From: DATKZS01 sp035527835 [NCBI: bacterium]
GTDB taxonomy: Bacteria > RBG-13-61-14
Reading direction: 5' to 3'
Assembly: GCA_035527835.1 (NCBI GenBank)
Contig: DATKZS010000070.1
Coordinates: 1-7,060, forward strand
DNA length: 7,060 bases
The notes beneath the pieces are model-generated. The model made no database searches, was not told the origin of the DNA, and worked only from the letters and a program-made list of their open reading frames with translations. Position numbers and translations under genes: made by a program. Shown here piece after piece: positions 1,469-7,060 of this stretch (the stretch's first letter is position 1; each line of letters begins with the position of its first letter).

Positions 1469-2962
1469 ATGAAAGACAGGCGGCTCATGTTATCCAGGAT
1501 GGAGACGCTGTGGCACCCGCGGCGGGTGGCCATGGTGGGCGCCACCAACTCCATGTCCAAGTGGGGGTTCATCATCTTCACGCGGATGCTGGGCGAGCAA
1601 TTCACCGGCGAGATTTTCCCGGTGAACCCCCGCGACGAGTACGTGGTGGGGAAGAAGGCGTATAAGAGCATCGCCGACGTGCCCGGCGCGATTGACGTGG
1701 CGGTGGTGGTGACTCCGGCGGCCACCGTGCCGGGCGTGCTCCGGGAGCTCGCTCAAAAAAAGGTGCCCGCCGCGATCGTGATCACGTCGGGTTTTTCGGA
1801 GACCGGGCCGGAGGGCGCGGCGGTGGAGCGGGAGATGGTGGAGTTCGCGCGCAAGGCCGGGATGGTGCTGGTCGGGCCGAACACGATGGGGACGTACAGC
1901 GCGGGGGTGCGGCTGAATTGTTTGATGGCGCCGGTGTCGCCGCTTGCGGGCCGGGCCGCGTGCATCGCTCAGAGCGGGAACGTGGGCACGCACATGCTGT
2001 TCCGGGGACGGCTCCGGGGCCTGGGCTTCGGCAAGTTCGTGAGCTCGGGCAACGAGGGCGACCTGTCGTTGGAGGACTACCTGTGGTACTTCGGCCAGGA
2101 CGACGAGACCAGCGCGGTGCTGGGCTATTTGGAGGGACTGGACCCGGACAGCGACTTCATGAGGATCGCGCCGGAGGTCACCAAGAAGAAGCCGGTGATC
2201 CTGTACAAGGGCGGGCGCACGGCGGCGGGGGCATCCGCGGCGGCGTCGCACACGGGCGCGCTGGCCGGGGACGCCGCGGTCTTCCGGTCGGCCATGCGCC
2301 AGGCGGGCGTGATTGTGGCGGAGTCGAACAAGGAAGTGGTCGAGCTGGCCCGGGCCATGGAGCTCTCGCCGGTGCCGAAGGGACCGCGCGTGGGCATCCT
2401 GACGCGCGGCGGCGGATGGGGCGTGATCACCTCCGACGCCTGCGTCGAGGCCGGACTCGAGGTGCCGCGGCTTTCCGACGATACCATGGCAAAGCTCGAC
2501 AAGCTGCTGCCGGCGTACTGGAGCCGGGGCAACCCGGTGGACATGGTGGCCGTGCTTTCCAACCAGGCGTATCTGGATTGCCTGGACCTGGTGGTGAAGG
2601 ACCCGAACGTGGACGCGGTGATCGGGCTCGGCGCGAACATTGACGCGCAGACCAATACCACGCTGGAAACTCTCCGGGACCAGGGCGCCATGGACGCGGA
2701 CAAGCTCCGCGCCATCGAGGAGAAGAGCCAGACGGAGGGAGACGAGTTCGTCAAGGCGTTGCGCGATTACCTGACCAACTCGCCGAAGCCCATCCTCTCG
2801 GTGGGCCGCTGGCGCGAGACCCCGGACTGGGAGTCCGGCCTCATGATGATCGGCGAGCCGGAGGACGCGGCCCGCATGATGGCCAAAATGGCGGAGTATG
2901 GCCGGTATTTGGCCGGGTCCAGTGGAAAGGAAGATAGACCGCCAAGACGCCAAGAGCGCTAA
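1469..2962 (+). CDS. NDP-forming acyl-CoA synthetase, alpha-subunit type
   Basis: The 497-residue protein matches the alpha half of ADP-forming acetate/acyl-CoA ligases, which link an acid, CoA and a nucleotide through a phosphohistidine. An N-terminal Rossmann-type CoA-binding domain starts with RRVAMVGATN near residue 20. A succinyl-CoA-synthetase-like domain carries IAQSGNVGT (S169), then SHTGALAGD with the likely phosphohistidine H261. A further ligase-CoA domain fills the rest; VGILTRGGGWG is a recognisable segment. About 460-500 residues is normal for an alpha subunit. The ATP-grasp beta half found fused in many relatives is absent, and no beta gene is in the window. It would have to act with a beta subunit encoded elsewhere or have another role. 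No signal peptide or membrane segment is seen, so it is cytoplasmic. The last nine codons (DRPPRRQER) run into a hairpin repeat that also provides the stop. The substrate is unknown. Confidence 0.85.
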   Translation: MKDRRLMLSRMETLWHPRRVAMVGATNSMSKWGFIIFTRMLGEQFTGEIFPVNPRDEYVVGKKAYKSIADVPGAIDVAVVVTPAATVPGVLRELAQKKVPAAIVITSGFSETGPEGAAVEREMVEFARKAGMVLVGPNTMGTYSAGVRLNCLMAPVSPLAGRAACIAQSGNVGTHMLFRGRLRGLGFGKFVSSGNEGDLSLEDYLWYFGQDDETSAVLGYLEGLDPDSDFMRIAPEVTKKKPVILYKGGRTAAGASAAASHTGALAGDAAVFRSAMRQAGVIVAESNKEVVELARAMELSPVPKGPRVGILTRGGGWGVITSDACVEAGLEVPRLSDDTMAKLDKLLPAYWSRGNPVDMVAVLSNQAYLDCLDLVVKDPNVDAVIGLGANIDAQTNTTLETLRDQGAMDADKLRAIEEKSQTEGDEFVKALRDYLTNSPKPILSVGRWRETPDWESGLMMIGEPEDAARMMAKMAEYGRYLAGSSGKEDRPPRRQER

Positions 2963-3033
2963 GAAAATTAATTAATTATATTATTATTAAAATATATTTA
3001 CTTGGCGCTCTTGGCGTCTTGGCGGTTAATCTT
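2931..3033. repeat. Hairpin element A (CGCCAAG type), overlapping the synthetase stop codon
   Basis: The left arm 2938-2963 pairs with the right arm 3001-3026 over 26 bases, with a single T/G wobble. With one mismatch the stem extends outward to 2931 and 3033. The 37-base loop (2964-3000) is entirely A and T. Reading inward, each arm holds three CGCNAAG units (CGCCAAG, CGCCAAG, CGCTAAG on the left) spaced by one and then two bases. The TAA at 2960-2962 lies in the stem. The + strand has no T-tract after the stem, so this is not a standard terminator. The right edge is 7 bases before the next gene's Shine-Dalgarno sequence. Confidence 0.92.
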
Positions 3034-3040
3034 AGCCTGA

Positions 3041-3047
3041 GGAGGTG
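3041..3047 (+). promoter_or_regulatory. Shine-Dalgarno fixing the 3054 start
   Basis: GGAGGTG, preceded by GA, lies 6 bases before ATG 3054. A GTG at 3045, in the same frame, overlaps this sequence and so cannot be the start. Confidence 0.8.
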
Positions 3048-3053
3048 AACAGG

Positions 3054-3602
3054 ATGGCGGAACATCATCTTCCGGAGGGGGCGCGGCGGGTGGCGCGGGC
3101 GCTGATCGAGGTGGTGAAGCCCAAAAAGCCGGGTTTCGACCTGCCGATCGAGGACTACATGCTCGATTTTCTCGACGACTTCTACTCGAACTTCCCGCTG
3201 CACCTCAAGATCGGCTTTCCGCTCGGCCTGTACCTCATGGAGTACGGGACTTTCATCTTCCATGCCTGGTCCAAGCCGTTCACGAAGCTAGAGCCCGGCG
3301 AGCGTGTAGTCTATGTCAAGGGCTGGATCAACTCGCGCATCTCGATCCGGCGCGACCTGATCAAGGGCGTGAAGGGCATATGTCTCACCGCGTTTTATTC
3401 GCACCCGGACGTGATGGCGCACATCGGCTACGACCTGGCCGGCCACTTGGCGGCCGTGAACCGGGGCGAGCCGTGCGATGCGGAGGCCGCGGATTTCTTC
3501 CGGGAAATGGGTTATGACCGCAACTCGAAAATCCCGTATCCGGCATACGACCACGTTGACCTGATCTGCCATGACACGCCGGCGGAGGGGGAGAAGGCTT
3601 GA
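3054..3602 (+). CDS. Probable small subunit of GMC oxidoreductase (gluconate 2-dehydrogenase subunit 3-like)
   Basis: The 182-residue protein has no catalytic motif I recognise. Its pattern recalls the gluconate 2-dehydrogenase subunit 3 family: a helical N-terminal half with a hydrophobic stretch (FPLGLYLMEYGTFIF, residues 55-69), a central ERVVYVKGW segment (83-91), and FYSHPDVMAHIGYD (114-127), close to the family's FYSxPxxxxxIGY signature. Such subunits are usually encoded beside a GMC flavoprotein, which is the case here: the GMC gene starts 140 bases downstream. I infer a structural or electron-transfer partner of that enzyme. There is no twin-arginine or other signal peptide, unlike periplasmic gluconate dehydrogenases, so the complex is probably cytoplasmic or peripheral to the membrane. 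The strong Shine-Dalgarno suggests good expression. Family assignment is by motif memory and moderately sure. Confidence 0.6.
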   Translation: MAEHHLPEGARRVARALIEVVKPKKPGFDLPIEDYMLDFLDDFYSNFPLHLKIGFPLGLYLMEYGTFIFHAWSKPFTKLEPGERVVYVKGWINSRISIRRDLIKGVKGICLTAFYSHPDVMAHIGYDLAGHLAAVNRGEPCDAEAADFFREMGYDRNSKIPYPAYDHVDLICHDTPAEGEKA

Positions 3603-3623
3603 GCGGTAAGAGTTGAAAAAATA

Positions 3624-3706
3624 TTTTGACAGGATGAACAGGATGATAAGAGGATAACCAATCATGGTTTCAGAAAATCCTGTTAATCCTGTTAATCCTG
3701 TCAAAA
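3624..3706. repeat. Hairpin element B (ACAGGAT type)
   Basis: The left arm 3624-3655 is imperfectly complementary to the right arm 3677-3706, around a loop of about 21 bases. The right arm holds three tandem units (ATCCTGTTA twice, then ATCCTGTCA) in a 9-base period. The left arm has ACAGGATGA twice and then a degenerate third unit two bases out of register. The stem is bordered by TTTT on the left and AAAA on the right. It begins 21 bases after the stop of the small-subunit gene and ends 24 bases before the Shine-Dalgarno of the GMC gene. Its sequence is unrelated to elements A, C and D, though the three-unit arm design is the same. Confidence 0.88.
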
Positions 3707-3730
3707 AATTCTGAGCGGGAATTAAATCAG

Positions 3731-3738
3731 GGAGGAGG
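3731..3738 (+). promoter_or_regulatory. Shine-Dalgarno of the GMC oxidoreductase gene
   Basis: GGAGGAGG ends 4 bases before ATG 3743 and offers two overlapping anti-Shine-Dalgarno registers. It lies outside hairpin B and so is not hidden by it. Confidence 0.75.
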
Positions 3739-3742
3739 GCTC

Positions 3743-5263
3743 ATGATTACGATCGGAAACGAGATCAGCCGCGACGTGGTCGAGAGCTGTGACGTTTGCG
3801 TGGTGGGCTCGGGCGCGGGCGGCGGCTCGATGGCGGCGGAGCTTAGTGAGGCCGGCCTCGAGGTCGTGATCCTGGAGGAAGGCGGCTACTACCAGAGCAA
3901 GGAATTCTCGCTGGACCCGGCCAAGGCCGTGCCCATGCTCTACCGCGACGCGGGCAGCTCCGTGATCATGGGCAAGCCCAACATCATCTTCAGCGAAGGC
4001 AAGTGCGTGGGCGGGTCCACCGTGATCAACGGCGGCATGTGCTGGCGGACGCCGGAGAAGGTGTTGCAGCGCTGGCGCTGGGAGCTGGGCTTGAAGGAGC
4101 TCACACCGAAGCACATGGAGCCGTACCTGGCCAAGGTGGAGGAGAGGATCAACGCGGCGCCGCAAAGCCCGGAGTCACTCGGCCGCGGCGACATGCTCTT
4201 CCGCCAGGCCGCGGACAAGCTTGGCTGGCTCATCCATCCCAACAAGCGCAATCAGAAGGGCTGCACCGGCGAGGGCATATGCATGTTCGGCTGTCCCACC
4301 GACAAGAAGCAGTCGGTGCTCATCACCTACATCCCGCGGGCGCTGAACAAGGGCGCGCGTCTCTATACCGACGTCAAGGTGCTCAAGGTCAAGACCAAGG
4401 GCCGGGTGGCGAGAAGCGTGGAGGCCCGGTTCGTGGACCGCAAGACCGGGAAGAAGAAGCCGCACCAGCTCACGGTCAACGCCAAGGTGATCGTGCTGGC
4501 GGGCGGGGCCTTGCAGACGCCGGTGATGCTGATGAACTCCGGGATCAAGTGCCAGGGCAACGTGGGCCGGCACTTCCACTGCCACCCCAATGTCAAGTGC
4601 GTCGGCATCTTCGACGACCCGGTCAATTACTGGAGGGGCGTGCACCAGGGCCACCAGATCCATCACTTCATTGACGAGGGCATCCTGATGGCCATCGGCG
4701 TGGTGCATCCGGGGCTGACCGCGCTCTCTTTCCCCCAGATCGGACGCGACAGCATCGAGCTCCTGGAGCTGTGGAACCACATGCTCGTGGCCGGCGGACT
4801 GGTGGACGACACCACCACCGGCCACATCTCGCGCGCGCCGTGGGGCGAGCCCCTGGCCTGGTACAACATTGACCACGTCGAGCACGAGCGCCTGATCCGA
4901 CTGGCCGCGCTCTTGTCCGAGCTCCTGTTCACCGCCGGCGCGCGCCGCGTGCTCCTGCCGTTCTCGTCGCTCGACGAGATCAGGGGACCGGACGAGATCA
5001 AGAAAATTTACGACGCCAAGATCAAGCCGGAGGAGATCGAGGTGCTCACGGTCCATGCCCTGGCCACCACCCGCATGGGCGCGGACCCCCGGAACTCCGT
5101 GGTCAACCCGTGGGGAGAGTGCTGGGACGTCGAGAAGCTCTTCATCGCCGACGCCGGCGTGGTGCCCACCTCATTGGGCGTCAACCCGCAGGAGACCATC
5201 ATGGCCCTGTCCACCCGCACCGGACAATACATCCTGGAGAACAAGAGAAAGTACCTGGCGTGA
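3743..5263 (+). CDS. GMC-family FAD-dependent oxidoreductase (alcohol oxidase/dehydrogenase type)
   Basis: The 506-residue protein has the full GMC plan. The FAD Rossmann motif GSGAGG (residues 22-27) is followed by VVILEEG with E45 as the likely ribose ligand. GKCVGGSTVINGG (86-98) is the second FAD-contact segment. The C-terminal signature HALATTRMG starts at H438, and GVNPQETI carries N481. By family analogy H438 and N481 form the His/Asn active-site pair that takes a hydride from an alcohol carbon, as in choline and cholesterol oxidases. A cysteine motif C174-x5-C180-x3-C184-P is reminiscent of long-chain fatty alcohol oxidase relatives; whether it binds metal is unknown. There is no signal peptide, so it is probably cytoplasmic. 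The upstream small protein is its likely partner. Substrate and electron acceptor cannot be read from sequence. Confidence 0.88.
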   Translation: MITIGNEISRDVVESCDVCVVGSGAGGGSMAAELSEAGLEVVILEEGGYYQSKEFSLDPAKAVPMLYRDAGSSVIMGKPNIIFSEGKCVGGSTVINGGMCWRTPEKVLQRWRWELGLKELTPKHMEPYLAKVEERINAAPQSPESLGRGDMLFRQAADKLGWLIHPNKRNQKGCTGEGICMFGCPTDKKQSVLITYIPRALNKGARLYTDVKVLKVKTKGRVARSVEARFVDRKTGKKKPHQLTVNAKVIVLAGGALQTPVMLMNSGIKCQGNVGRHFHCHPNVKCVGIFDDPVNYWRGVHQGHQIHHFIDEGILMAIGVVHPGLTALSFPQIGRDSIELLELWNHMLVAGGLVDDTTTGHISRAPWGEPLAWYNIDHVEHERLIRLAALLSELLFTAGARRVLLPFSSLDEIRGPDEIKKIYDAKIKPEEIEVLTVHALATTRMGADPRNSVVNPWGECWDVEKLFIADAGVVPTSLGVNPQETIMALSTRTGQYILENKRKYLA

Positions 5264-5277
5264 GGCAAAGTAAATTT

Positions 5278-5397
5278 ATTATTAAGCGCTAAGGCGCAAA
5301 GAACGCAAAGAAGAAAAATTTAATCAATCAGCGCCGACTCGGGATTTGTAATTAATTCTTTCTCTGCGTACTTTGCGTCTTTGCGCTTTAAAATAAT
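5278..5397. repeat. Hairpin element C (CGCAAAG type)
   Basis: Core arms 5284-5312 and 5360-5388 pair over 29 bases with 25 complementary positions; one of the other four is a G/T wobble. Outer A/T pairs (ATTATT 5278-5283 with AATAAT 5392-5397) extend it past a small bulge. The loop of about 47 bases is unlike that of A or D. The left arm reads CGCTAAG, CGCAAAG, CGCAAAG with one- and two-base spacers, the same spacing as in A and D. The left boundary TTATTAAGCGC (5279-5289) is identical to that of element D (6406-6416). It starts 14 bases after the GMC stop and ends 31 bases before the transporter start. Confidence 0.9.
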
Positions 5398-5428
5398 GCT
5401 TGATTACGTTTAGGCGGATGATATCGTC

Positions 5429-6355
5429 ATGCAGATCCTGAACACCGTACTCCCCGTTTTCCTGGTGATCGCGCTGGGCTGGGCGCTGGGCGCGGGGAAG
5501 CTGATTGACGAGGAGATGAACCGGAAATTTTCGTGGTTCGTCTTTTACGTGTCGGCGCCCGCGCTCTTGTTCCAGGGCGCGGCCAGGACCACGCTCTCGG
5601 CGGCTCTGGACCTGAAGACGATCGGGACGGTTTTCGGGGTCTCGCTGGCCACGGCGCTGATCGTTTATATGGCGGGCGCGCGGCTTAAAGCCTCGCGGCG
5701 GGGCGTGGTGGCGCAGGGGTCGTTTCGGAGCAACATGGTGTTCGTGGGGCTGCCGGTGATCCAGAACGCGCTGGGCAAGGAAGTCCTGGGACCGGCCGCG
5801 GTGCTGATCGGGTTCACGGTGCTGCTCTACAATTTCCTCGCGGTCCTGGTGCTGGCGCTGCCGCACGGCAACGGCGGAGAGAGCGGGCTGGACCTCAAGA
5901 AGACGGTACGCGACGTGGCGCTGAACCCGCTCATGCTGTCCTCCGCCGCCGGCCTGCTCTTTTCCGCGTTCGACCTGCATCTGCCCGCGGCCGCGGGCCG
6001 GGCCGCGGACATGGTGGGCGACATCGCGGCGCCGCTGGCGCTGGTGGTGGTGGGAGCGTCGCTGGACCTGAAGCAGCTCAGGCACGAGATCGGGCCATCG
6101 CTCGCGGTGTCGCTGATTAAGCTCGTGCTCTACCCGGCCGTGATCTTCGCCGTGCTCCGCTTCCTGGGCGAGACCGGGCCTGATCTCGAGGCCACCGTTC
6201 TGCTCATGGCCGCCCCCGCCGCCGTGGCCAGCCACATCATGGCCAAGGAAATGAAAGGCGACGAGCGCCTGTCATCATCCGTCGTCATCGGAACCACCGT
6301 CTTCTCCCTCTTCACCATCACCGCCTGGCTCGCCTTCCTCGCCTGGACCAAGTAG
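5429..6355 (+). CDS. AEC-family (auxin efflux carrier type) membrane transporter
   Basis: The 308-residue hydrophobic protein reads like a bacterial AEC permease of usual length. It starts with the typical helix ILNTVLPVFLVIALGWALG (residues 3-21), then FYVSAPALLFQ (39-49). The family's loop motif is FRSNMVFVGLP (99-109), and the C-terminal half has PLALVVVGASL (from residue 202). I count roughly eight to ten membrane helices, with a hydrophilic loop near the middle around GGESGLDLKK. Relatives export or exchange small carboxylates such as malate or malonate; here the substrate is unknown. By position it may move a substrate or product of the GMC/synthetase genes. ATG 5429 has only a weak, distant AGG (5412-5414), so initiation may be inefficient or coupled to upstream translation. 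Confidence 0.85.
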   Translation: MQILNTVLPVFLVIALGWALGAGKLIDEEMNRKFSWFVFYVSAPALLFQGAARTTLSAALDLKTIGTVFGVSLATALIVYMAGARLKASRRGVVAQGSFRSNMVFVGLPVIQNALGKEVLGPAAVLIGFTVLLYNFLAVLVLALPHGNGGESGLDLKKTVRDVALNPLMLSSAAGLLFSAFDLHLPAAAGRAADMVGDIAAPLALVVVGASLDLKQLRHEIGPSLAVSLIKLVLYPAVIFAVLRFLGETGPDLEATVLLMAAPAAVASHIMAKEMKGDERLSSSVVIGTTVFSLFTITAWLAFLAWTK

Positions 6356-6401
6356 CGCCAGCGGCCCGCCGGTTCCGTAAATCCGAGTGGTGAAGTGAAG
6401 G

Positions 6402-6519
6402 CTTTTTATTAAGCGCAAAGCCGCAAAGGGCGCAAAGAAAAAAGCAGGGAAAACGTCCGGCAATAAAAATCTTTGGTTTTTCCTTTGCGTTCTTTGCGGC
6501 TTTGCGCTCATAATAAAAG
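6402..6519. repeat. Hairpin element D (CGCAAAG type)
   Basis: Core arms 6412-6443 and 6477-6508 match over 32 bases with few mismatches, two of them G/T wobbles; A/T-rich flanks extend it imperfectly. The left arm has three exact CGCAAAG units spaced by one and two bases, then a run of A. The right arm mirrors this. The loop (6444-6476) is unrelated to the loops of A and C. It begins 46 bases after the transporter stop. No T-tract follows on the + strand. Confidence 0.92.
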
Positions 6520-6637
6520 TTGAATTTTCATGGAACCAAGAACTAGACTCAGGTGTCAGTTTCAGGTAAGAGGCTTATCGGGCCGGCGCGGGCCGGCCGG
6601 GCAATTCACCCCTTGATCTCTGACCAGGGAGGAAGCC
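6513..6637 (+). other. Leader region of the DUF2157 gene with a GC hairpin and a weak promoter candidate
   Basis: A 7-bp stem pairs GGCCGGC (6581-6587) with GCCGGCC (6592-6598) over a GCGG loop. No T-tract follows it, so it is not a simple terminator. A poor promoter candidate is TTGAAT (6520-6525), 18 bases, TAGACT (6544-6549). Beyond these I see nothing specific. Confidence 0.35.
6626..6633 (+). promoter_or_regulatory. Shine-Dalgarno of the DUF2157 gene
   Basis: AGGGAGGA ends 4 bases before ATG 6638. It is strong support for this start and for the partial gene being real. Confidence 0.7.
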
Positions 6638-7060
6638 ATGAGCACGAAGCCGACCGTTCCCAGGGCCTCGTTCATCCGCAGGCTGCTGGTCGAGATCGAA
6701 CACTGGACGGCGGAAGGGCTGATTGACGCGGTGACGGCGGCCAGGCTGCGCTCGCGGTATCCGGAGGTGGGTCCGGTGGACTGGCGGGGGCGGCTGGTCA
6801 CGGTGCTGTCGGTGATGGCGGCGACGCTGTTGGGCCTTGGCGTGATCATGTTCTTCGCGGCGAACTGGGACGCGATCCCTCGTTGGGGTAAGCTCGCGCT
6901 GATCATCGCGATCATGGGGGGCACGTACGTTGCGGGGTGGCTGCTGCGTTATGAGCGGGGGTATCCGAAGGTCGGCGGGTCGGTGATCTTCCTGGGCGCC
7001 ATCCTTTACGGGGCCGCCATCTTCCTGGTGGCGCAGGCGTTCAACATCCGGGAGCATTTC
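6638..7060 (+). CDS. DUF2157 domain membrane protein, N-terminal part (runs off window)
   Basis: ATG 6638 opens a frame that stays open to the last base, giving 141 residues. A soluble N-terminal segment (IEHWTAEGLIDAVTAARLRSRY type, residues 20-41) is followed by membrane helices near 52-75, 83-101 and 114-133. The patterns LGLGVIMFFAANWDAIP (about 65-81) and VAQAFNIREH (about 131-140) are characteristic of DUF2157, a family of predicted multi-helix inner-membrane proteins without an assigned function. The family is usually about 300 residues or longer, so the larger part lies beyond the window. It sits 282 bases after the transporter gene, beyond hairpin D, so it may be a separate transcription unit. 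Confidence 0.85.
   Translation, partial: MSTKPTVPRASFIRRLLVEIEHWTAEGLIDAVTAARLRSRYPEVGPVDWRGRLVTVLSVMAATLLGLGVIMFFAANWDAIPRWGKLALIIAIMGGTYVAGWLLRYERGYPKVGGSVIFLGAILYGAAIFLVAQAFNIREHF

Follow-up and report, generated by a model that had tools for sequence, protein, structure and literature searches.

Hairpins that hold a gene have been described before. The 23S rRNA intervening sequences form a hairpin whose loop carries a small ORF for a four-helix-bundle protein (S23). The elements studied here also have a small ORF inside a hairpin loop; however, they are intergenic, while the intervening sequences lie in rRNA. A second comparison is with homing endonuclease genes of the PD-(D/E)XK type, where a small nuclease gene could spread through cleavage of sites in which it is absent. 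Here too a small nuclease gene, named GxxExxY, has filled and empty sites, but there is no intron and no single conserved target gene; further, the gene has arms of its own on either side, and copies without a gene are common. A four-helix-bundle family, TIGR02436, is the second loop-borne family that we found, and its arm grammar is different: heptamer arms of period 7, another kind than the arms of GxxExxY.

Other described systems resemble the hairpins rather than the gene. REPs and REPINs are short, high-copy palindromes found mostly after genes, which a partner RAYT may move (PMC3733652). As far as that account describes them, the likeness lies in the high copy number of short palindromes, the position after genes and a candidate mobilising partner gene. 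The differences are that the gene here is a PD-(D/E)XK nuclease within the loop instead of an adjacent Y1 transposase, that the hairpins carry no GTAG/CGTC tag, and that their arms are repeated heptamers. Intergenic heptamer arrays of Xanthomonas and Nostoc, in tandem with period 7 and in Xanthomonas often as inverted pairs, have been studied as G-quadruplexes (PMC4692102); as presented there, they are nearer to the TIGR02436 class than to the arms of our locus.

In 2009 the three-unit paired anatomy was noted in Geobacter metallireducens, under the name 'predicted global regulator binding sites', classes 1-3 (PMC2700814). Class 2 consists of site pairs, one site on each strand and a variable distance apart, with three tandem repeats per site and the consensus TCTCCGTS[Y], which reads as CACGGAG-like units on the complementary strand; in classes 1 and 3 the paired repeats are octamers and heptamers. 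The sites were taken as putative regulator sites, unique to that genome, and the passages describing them speak neither of a nuclease gene nor of mobility or occurrence in many genomes. The hairpins of our locus have the class 2 architecture as given there, with a different unit sequence, while units of the CACGGAG type are present in relatives.

The window, that is the whole stretch of 7,060 nucleotides that was analysed, contains four such hairpins, named A to D:

1490..2962, plus strand: host gene before A, CoA-binding / succinyl-CoA ligase-like (PF13607, PF13380); its 3' end enters A
2931..3033, no strand: hairpin A, gene-less; units CGCCAAG CGCCAAG CGCTAAG on the left, CGCCAAG three times on the right
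2940-2963, plus strand: left arm of A, three heptamers with spacing 7-1-7-2-7
3001-3024, minus strand: right arm of A, three CGCCAAG heptamers
3620..3710, no strand: hairpin B, sister of A, C and D by inverted repeat and alignment; ACAGGAT units
3743..5263, plus strand: host gene between B and C, GMC oxidoreductase (PF00732, PF05199)
about 5276..5396, no strand: hairpin C, gene-less; arms 5287-5310 and 5362-5385, one mismatch
5429..6355, plus strand: host gene between C and D, membrane transport protein (PF03547)
about 6404..6518, no strand: hairpin D, gene-less; arms 6414-6437 and 6483-6506; all six units CGCAAAG

The pattern CGCNAAGNCGCNAAGNNCGCNAAG is matched by six arms (2940+, 3001-, 5287+, 5362- with one mismatch, 6414+ and 6483-), a number that none of 200 shuffles reaches (shuffle mean 0.01). 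The observation of the preliminary description, that A, C and D share arms of 7-1-7-2-7 spacing, is thus confirmed far above chance, together with their unrelated loops and the left edge TTATTAAGCGC common to C and D. Three of its details need amendment. The three copies stand, with the sister hairpin B omitted from the count. The copies were said to lie in gaps between genes, which is not entirely so for A: it is overlapped by the ORF ending at 2962, whose stop codon TAA (2960-2962) is supplied by the third left unit, CGCTAAG. The unit was also said to differ on both arms at once; this is clear for A versus D only, and in C the first left unit has T facing A.

In the arm alignment the left and right arms match at 23/24 positions in A, 20/24 in C and 22/24 in D. 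The RNA-folding z-scores are -13.6 for A, -6.1 for B, -5.0 for C and -8.1 for D, and no shuffle is equally stable for A, C or D. B follows the overall plan of the other three with ACAGGAT as unit, which is also the unit of the GxxExxY cassettes L312, L345 and L483. All four have the arms of the cassette class: inverted, with three heptamers spaced 8-11 nt. An Rfam search of the window returned no family at gathering score. Since a GxxExxY gene would not fit into such short loops and none of the window's ORFs was seen to belong to this family, we place A-D as gene-less members of the class. Most hairpins of this class are gene-less, as these are. Loops as remnants of the nuclease gene were considered and rejected: the best local scores of nine loops are 7-10.5, and random flanks have a median of 11.

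The arms are abundant. A genome scan found them in at least 118 stretches from many phyla, and exact arms occur in all 50 genomes sampled from these, at 1-323 per genome in this set chosen for the arm; the reversed pattern occurs in none of the 50. The 'abundant genomic element' proposed at the outset is therefore borne out. Among the matches listed for these 118 genome loci, which were selected for the arm, there are 60 strict hairpins, and only 2 have GxxExxY in the loop. Gene-less hairpins whose arms match GxxExxY cassettes elsewhere in the same genome were found in G005 and G415. Other ORFs also sit in hairpin loops, chiefly in viral contigs.

The association between the gene and the arms is clear when GxxExxY genes are taken as the starting point. 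By a strict count, inward three-unit arms flank 169 of 240 GxxExxY entries on both sides, compared with 34 for outward arms and 6/237 in shifted controls; strict arms on both sides are missing from the other 71. These entries derive from 238 loci, 237 of which gave 244 domain hits (L319, with two stops, gave none), after leaving out L306, L328, L406 and L418 with short flanks. L403 and L449 contain the same two genes twice, all positive, and the broken genes of L324 and L484 were hit twice; counting distinct genes gives about 167/236. With a looser arm score the fractions are 66/90 for GxxExxY versus 11/449 for mispaired and 9/575 for random regions, and in a sample not selected for arms 23/29 versus 6/112. 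The sampled genes were the best-scoring hits, so the counts favour intact GxxExxY genes.

Further, the arms covary. In the 169 gene-bearing relatives, left-right agreement at unit positions 2, 4, 5 and 7 is 0.964, 0.799, 0.970 and 0.964, well above the shuffled values of 0.49, 0.45, 0.51 and 0.53. Unit type tracks the nuclease tree closely: position 7 needs 6 changes and never fewer than 32 in shuffles, in a tree of 166 rows with many forks unresolved, where only rows with agreeing arms were used at each position. Within one phylum GxxExxY is found in 19/20 arm genomes versus 20/79 others (p about 1e-8), each sample including one centre genome picked for the arm. Six of the 50 arm genomes, among them G018 with 57 arms and G022 with 47, lack it or have it only below the cut-off; these assemblies may be incomplete. 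With one query, GxxExxY was found in 7 plasmid records out of 72,556 and in none of the 50,697 records from phages, so plasmids and phages seem not to be the main carriers. Four plasmid copies from the 7 hits were examined, with gene gaps set by a crude longest-ORF rule, and all four have flanking arms.

By motif and predicted fold, GxxExxY is a small nuclease of the PD-(D/E)XK fold. The family (TIGR04256 / PF13366) was recognised at 129 and 132 bits, with a cut-off of 35, and D64, E74 and K76, a conserved D and ExK, are invariant across 32 sequences. The predicted model (pLDDT 95.6) has PD-(D/E)XK-fold nucleases as its structure matches, with a best Z of 9.8. Foldseek gave no match with E <0.001 for the model, a weak match being I-Bth0305I (3r3p), and a profile search of PDB sequences found nothing up to E = 1. 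In the literature searched, the name GxxExxY occurs in two papers, in passing in each, and no paper on PDDEXK_3 was found; judged by title listings, no paper there ties GxxExxY to hairpins and none is relevant to the arm sequence strings.

Two observations point to mobility, in line with the 'MITE-like, mobilised' element of the preliminary description. First, DNA similarity stops at the arms on both sides in the cassette pairs L355/L322 and L278/L296, and on one side in five further pairs; 40 of 267 similar pairs were listed, and most of these pairs of similar genes have no clean end at both arms. Second, the gap between carA and carB holds a GxxExxY hairpin at 3 loci, a gene-less hairpin at 2 and none at 26 (30 loci from 47 genomes plus L280, hairpins judged by eye). 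Filled and empty versions of one site, typical of homing genes, thus exist. Of the features expected in a MITE of a known IS family, the inverted ends are clear, and the carA-carB sites are too divergent to define a target-site duplication. In Propionivibrio, the search for an empty site found no conserved gene order around the chosen hairpin.

Another explanation is that the repeats are bound by a nucleoid protein or a global regulator, as proposed for similar paired sites in G. metallireducens (PMC2700814). Such binding does not account for a gene carried inside the loop, for similarity that stops at the arms or for a single slot changing its unit type, and in the passages describing them the sites are predicted ones. 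We regard this explanation as very unlikely.

The preliminary description had instead suggested a REP/MITE-like family that a RAYT (Y1 tyrosine) transposase would mobilise. It is true that the repeats are palindromic, intergenic and abundant, and Y1_Tnp was found in 47/50 arm genomes, so its mere presence leaves room for a RAYT role. However, none of 19 Y1_Tnp genes (of 20 loci, L616 being too short) lies between two such arms, though inverted repeats of some kind flank 10 of them; the arm-rich genomes G033 (185 arms) and G038 (78 arms) have no Y1_Tnp match; and neither a GTAG nor a CGTC tag occurs in the 15 nt next to the outer edges of A-D. We therefore reject a RAYT partner as the main reading and consider it highly improbable. 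The earlier interpretation holds in part: abundant and MITE-like, with GxxExxY as the partner found.

The partnership of GxxExxY and hairpin is well supported by the gene lying inside the arms and by gene and arm type going together on the nuclease tree; so is the mobility of the cassette, by similarity ending at the arms in some pairs and by one site being filled, gene-less or empty among relatives. A cassette has two inverted arms of three heptamer units each, spaced about 8-10 nt, around a loop that may be short and unrelated, or contain another hairpin or a GxxExxY gene. For the mechanism, we infer the following. The nuclease would recognise the folded or cruciform arms and cut there, and repair would copy the cassette into new sites, mostly directly after a stop codon or by replacing a hairpin already present. 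Gene-less copies would be moved in trans. Given their shared design, A-D presumably follow the same scheme, and we think it probable that they are gene-less members of widespread mobile hairpin cassettes spread by GxxExxY nucleases.

The positions of hairpins raise a different possibility: that they are host features selected at gene ends (3'-end, mRNA-stability or terminator-like), with GxxExxY as an invading homing passenger. Slots are conserved among relatives (11/15, 6/9, 8/9 and 4/5 versus 2/31, 1/11, 2/19 and 4/32), gaps with hairpins are convergent more often than those without (8/20 versus 9/63), and the majority of hairpins are gene-less. Against this, a passenger need not show an arm type that tracks the nuclease tree, nor an own arm grammar for each protein family, and sequences at a single slot are swapped wholesale between relatives. 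A scan for intrinsic terminators found none at the hairpins, but it was limited to loops of 3-8 and is unsuited to loops such as these. On balance host selection with passengers seems unlikely to us. That positions are kept while sequences change would fit a slot with a function as well as a site where insertion is favoured. Nested palindromes of any kind number 25 versus 28 side by side in 620 kb, or 21 versus 5 without the dense stretch G005 C2 (4 and 23), which is only suggestive of loop insertion. In the slot, convergence and nesting counts a hairpin is any strong palindrome, beyond this class, and gene gaps follow a crude longest-ORF rule.

Returning to the mobile cassettes, the hairpin class is very common and barely described, often with a small nuclease gene in its loop, and this gene suggests that the hairpins are very small mobile elements of a type not recognised before. 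A broader reading, which we offer tentatively and do not quite favour, has at least two mobile hairpin classes in bacterial chromosomes, one in which GxxExxY goes with three-unit arms that are spaced and one in which TIGR02436 goes with heptamer arms of period 7; each protein would read its own arm grammar, and existing hairpins would be exchange sites, so that the gap between two genes would always have 'a hairpin', but one whose sequence is replaced as a whole. If true, it would describe a new kind of mobile element and account for much of the anonymous palindromic DNA in environmental genomes. The link between GxxExxY, a widespread nuclease family, and a hairpin class of such abundance suggests for each of them a function that can be tested. 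It also points to a partner gene for many palindromic repeats that are so far anonymous, and presents a natural system in which hairpins are exchanged at fixed gene-end slots. The arms are also relevant for annotation, as they provide stop codons of host genes: besides hairpin A, the stop codon of carA in L259 is supplied by the arm of the element.

Four hairpins, A to D, lie in the window, each made of two inverted arms of three heptamer units.

2931-3033: hairpin A, arms of three CGCNAAG units, spacing 7-1-7-2-7
3620-3710: hairpin B, same plan as A, C and D, with ACAGGAT units
5276-5396: hairpin C, arms of three CGCNAAG units, spacing 7-1-7-2-7
6404-6518: hairpin D, arms of three CGCNAAG units, spacing 7-1-7-2-7

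The preliminary description had reported the arms of A, C and D, and this observation is correct: six arms match the three-unit pattern (five exactly, one with a mismatch), against a mean of 0.01 in shuffled sequence, and all three hairpins fold far more strongly than shuffles. The TAA stop of the ORF preceding A falls inside the third left-arm unit. Of five neighbouring genes compared with Pfam, four have matches to ordinary families and one, the ORF at 3048-3602, has none; in an Rfam scan of the window no family reached its gathering score. Separate from the hairpins, an ORF at 1-1209 contains repeats rich in Asp and Cys that recur every 90 nt, with a consensus like DGDNDGLxDCxDPDC.

What was seen here is one part of a larger phenomenon, and we class A-D as gene-less representatives of a hairpin-plus-nuclease variant among palindromic mobile repeats; the protein concerned is GxxExxY (TIGR04256), of the PD-(D/E)XK nuclease fold. 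An abundant element had been proposed, and this is borne out: an exact arm scan of one-genome-per-species contigs gave at least 118 stretches, and 50 genomes chosen for carrying the arm contain 1-323 arms each, with the pattern read backwards occurring in none of the 50. Among the matches listed are Chlamydiota, Bacteroidetes, Desulfobacterales, Planctomycetota, Acidobacteria, Cyanobacteria and Gammaproteobacteria. The arm is present in 20/99 genomes of one phylum sample, which includes its centre genome G045, itself picked for the arm. It is also found in viral contigs, with 390 arms versus 57 hairpins, many arms being without a strict partner; in the viral loci L205, L231, L186 and L131 small non-GxxExxY ORFs lie between inverted CGCNAAG arms. 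Locus L076 has four co-directional arms spaced about 81 nt apart (6601-6866).

At two arm loci with an ORF between the arms (L079, L114) this ORF is GxxExxY (129 and 132 bits; cut-off 35). The gene is found above the cut-off in 44 of the 50 arm-selected genomes, and 14 named control genomes gave three matches, none of them above it. Counting against a partnership, six of the 50 are without an above-cut-off GxxExxY, including the arm-rich G018 (57 arms) and G022 (47). Each of three phylum samples comprised 99 genomes, of which 39, 50 and 42 have the gene above the cut-off; in the first sample, by hand count, it occurs in 19/20 genomes with the arm versus 20/79 others (p ~1e-8).

The gene lies between the arms. 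When three units spaced 8-11 with no more than two mismatches are required (the strict rule), inward arms are present on both sides of 169 of the 240 GxxExxY entries from four samples (72/90 in the arm-selected genomes, then 21/29, 33/62 and 43/59), compared with 34 for outward arms and 6/237 at positions shifted by 650 nt; after removing repeats the count is about 167/236 genes. A looser inverted-repeat score of at least 20 is reached by 66/90 genes versus 11/449 mispaired flanks and 9/575 random positions, and in a second sample the looser score gives 23/29 versus 6/112 shifted. The units of these cassettes, hairpins with the gene in the loop, are CGCNAAG, CGCNGAG, CACNAAG, CACNGAG, T- or A-ending versions, and ACAGGAT. 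Left and right arms of a cassette agree in 96, 80, 97 and 96% at unit positions 2, 4, 5 and 7, and in about half after shuffling. During replication one arm of a quasipalindrome can be corrected by the other; arm covariation may result from such correction and is therefore no evidence for an RNA role. Four of seven plasmid hits were inspected in public records, and all four are flanked by inverted repeats of such units, as in the cassette between fabD and fabG of Sphingomonas parapaucimobilis (NZ_CP155749.1). On the Gemmatirosa plasmid NZ_CP007129.1 (L637) the gene stands between two complete hairpins, not two arms, and resembles a composite element.

In an alignment of 32 GxxExxY sequences D64, E74, K76 and Y92 are invariant and E24 and Q88 nearly so, a pattern also seen in RecB/Cas4-type nucleases. 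The predicted structure is confident (pLDDT 95.6). Foldseek gave nothing below E 0.001, the top matches being an alkaline exonuclease (3syy) and the Cas4 protein SSO0001 (4ic1); structural re-alignment gave Z 9.8 for SSO0001, 7.1 for the archaeal junction resolvase Hjc and 6.7 for Cas4, values that are usual within this fold and not proof of function. Several copies are fragments or contain stops, as expected if the genes are invasive and decaying. The putative nuclease would act on the folded arms, cutting and subsequent repair would copy the cassette, and gene-less copies would be moved in trans. Mobilisation by a RAYT (Y1_Tnp) transposase, suggested earlier, is not supported. Flanking inverted repeats of another kind were seen at 10/19 Y1_Tnp genes (L614-L633); some contain GGGGTCAG, and they bear no relation to the CGCNAAG-type arms.

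Gene and arm type have a common ancestry. On a partly unresolved tree of 166 GxxExxY domains from a short alignment (119 columns), unit position 7 (G vs T/A) changes 6 times, while shuffles give a mean of 40.6 and a minimum of 32; positions 2, 5 and 4 change 34, 31 and 29 times versus 51.9, 51.1 and 36.3. Host phylum, over three phylum sets, takes 28 changes versus 43.0, so hosts are clustered as well, though more loosely than position 7. The same tracking of the tree by arm type would arise if gene and arms were simply inherited together.

Inverted repeats also flank the four-helix-bundle family TIGR02436, studied in 29 genes that are best hits of a 99-genome sample shared with the GxxExxY survey: the score is at least 16 in 27/29 and at least 20 in 19/29, versus 3/110 and 2/110 controls. 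Here the arms consist of tandem heptamers of period 7, found on both sides in 10/29 and on at least one in 18/29 (L358-L387; units such as AAAGTCC, GGGTAAT and TAGCAGT). Spaced three-unit arms on both sides occur in 1/29, and period-7 arms on both sides of GxxExxY in 0/240 entries; arm grammar thus differs between the two families. An earlier paper (PMC4692102) describes arrays of heptamers in Xanthomonas and Nostoc. No paper connecting GxxExxY with hairpins was found in the literature searched, which includes a minority of subscription papers.

Cassette boundaries were compared in 40 of 267 similar GxxExxY gene pairs. Two pairs, L355/L322 and L278/L296, lose DNA similarity at the outer edge of both arms, and five more (L330/L241, L245/L262, L348/L307, L450/L409 and L439/L351) do so at one arm; in most remaining pairs similarity ends closer to the gene, and in same-site pairs it continues into the neighbours. 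Filled, gene-less and empty sites can be compared directly in the carA-carB gap, a natural experiment: among 31 loci, three have a GxxExxY hairpin in a 472-nt gap (genomes G005 and G415, and L280 from G035), a gene-less CACAGAG hairpin occupies a 98-nt gap in two (G416, G413), and 26 have no such hairpin (gaps 64-139 nt). In G005 the arm supplies the stop codon of carA.

Ten other places matching the arm of the carA-carB cassette were fetched from G005 and G415. Both arms are present in eight and one decayed arm in two, four contain (by eye) an inner hairpin of different unit type, and no GxxExxY remnants were seen in the nine loops tested. These gene-less hairpins match the pattern described for the window, common arms with unrelated loops. 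Among loci of the arm-selected genomes GxxExxY lies in 2/60 strict hairpins, most being gene-less. Near 1,329,000 of G415 C1 (L594-L597) about 600 extra nt with a 178-aa ORF lie between hairpin arms, where G005 (C7:86419) has only a short hairpin; we read this as cargo capture.

The gene gaps that hold hairpins, or slots, are conserved. Where a G005 gap has a strong palindrome the relative's gap has one in 11/15, 6/9, 8/9 and 4/5 cases, versus 2/31, 1/11, 2/19 and 4/32 for other gaps. Hairpins sharing a slot often differ in kind: C7:42516 has ACAGGAT units in G005 and CGC units in three relatives, and C7:49243 has CGCAAAG units in G005 and G415 and period-7 hairpins in G416 and G413. At C7:46787 the hairpin is alike in G005 and G415. 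Median identity of G005/G415 gaps is 0.763 with a palindrome in both (n=15) versus 0.961 without (n=57). In raw counts, cassette arms adjoin ORF 3' ends on 184 sides and 5' ends on 75, with 79 undecided; a stop codon lies within about 40 nt in 126 of the 184. Either a hairpin is useful in the slot and is replaced in kind, such a host function being the main rival to a mobile element, or existing hairpins and gene ends draw new ones. A nested hairpin (CGCAGAG outer, ACAGGAT inner) is found at a shared position in G005 and G415 (L567-L570, 57021-57188, vs L571-L575, 56981-57148); its best match is in inverted orientation (99.4%), a sequence comparison that suggests inversion of the element.
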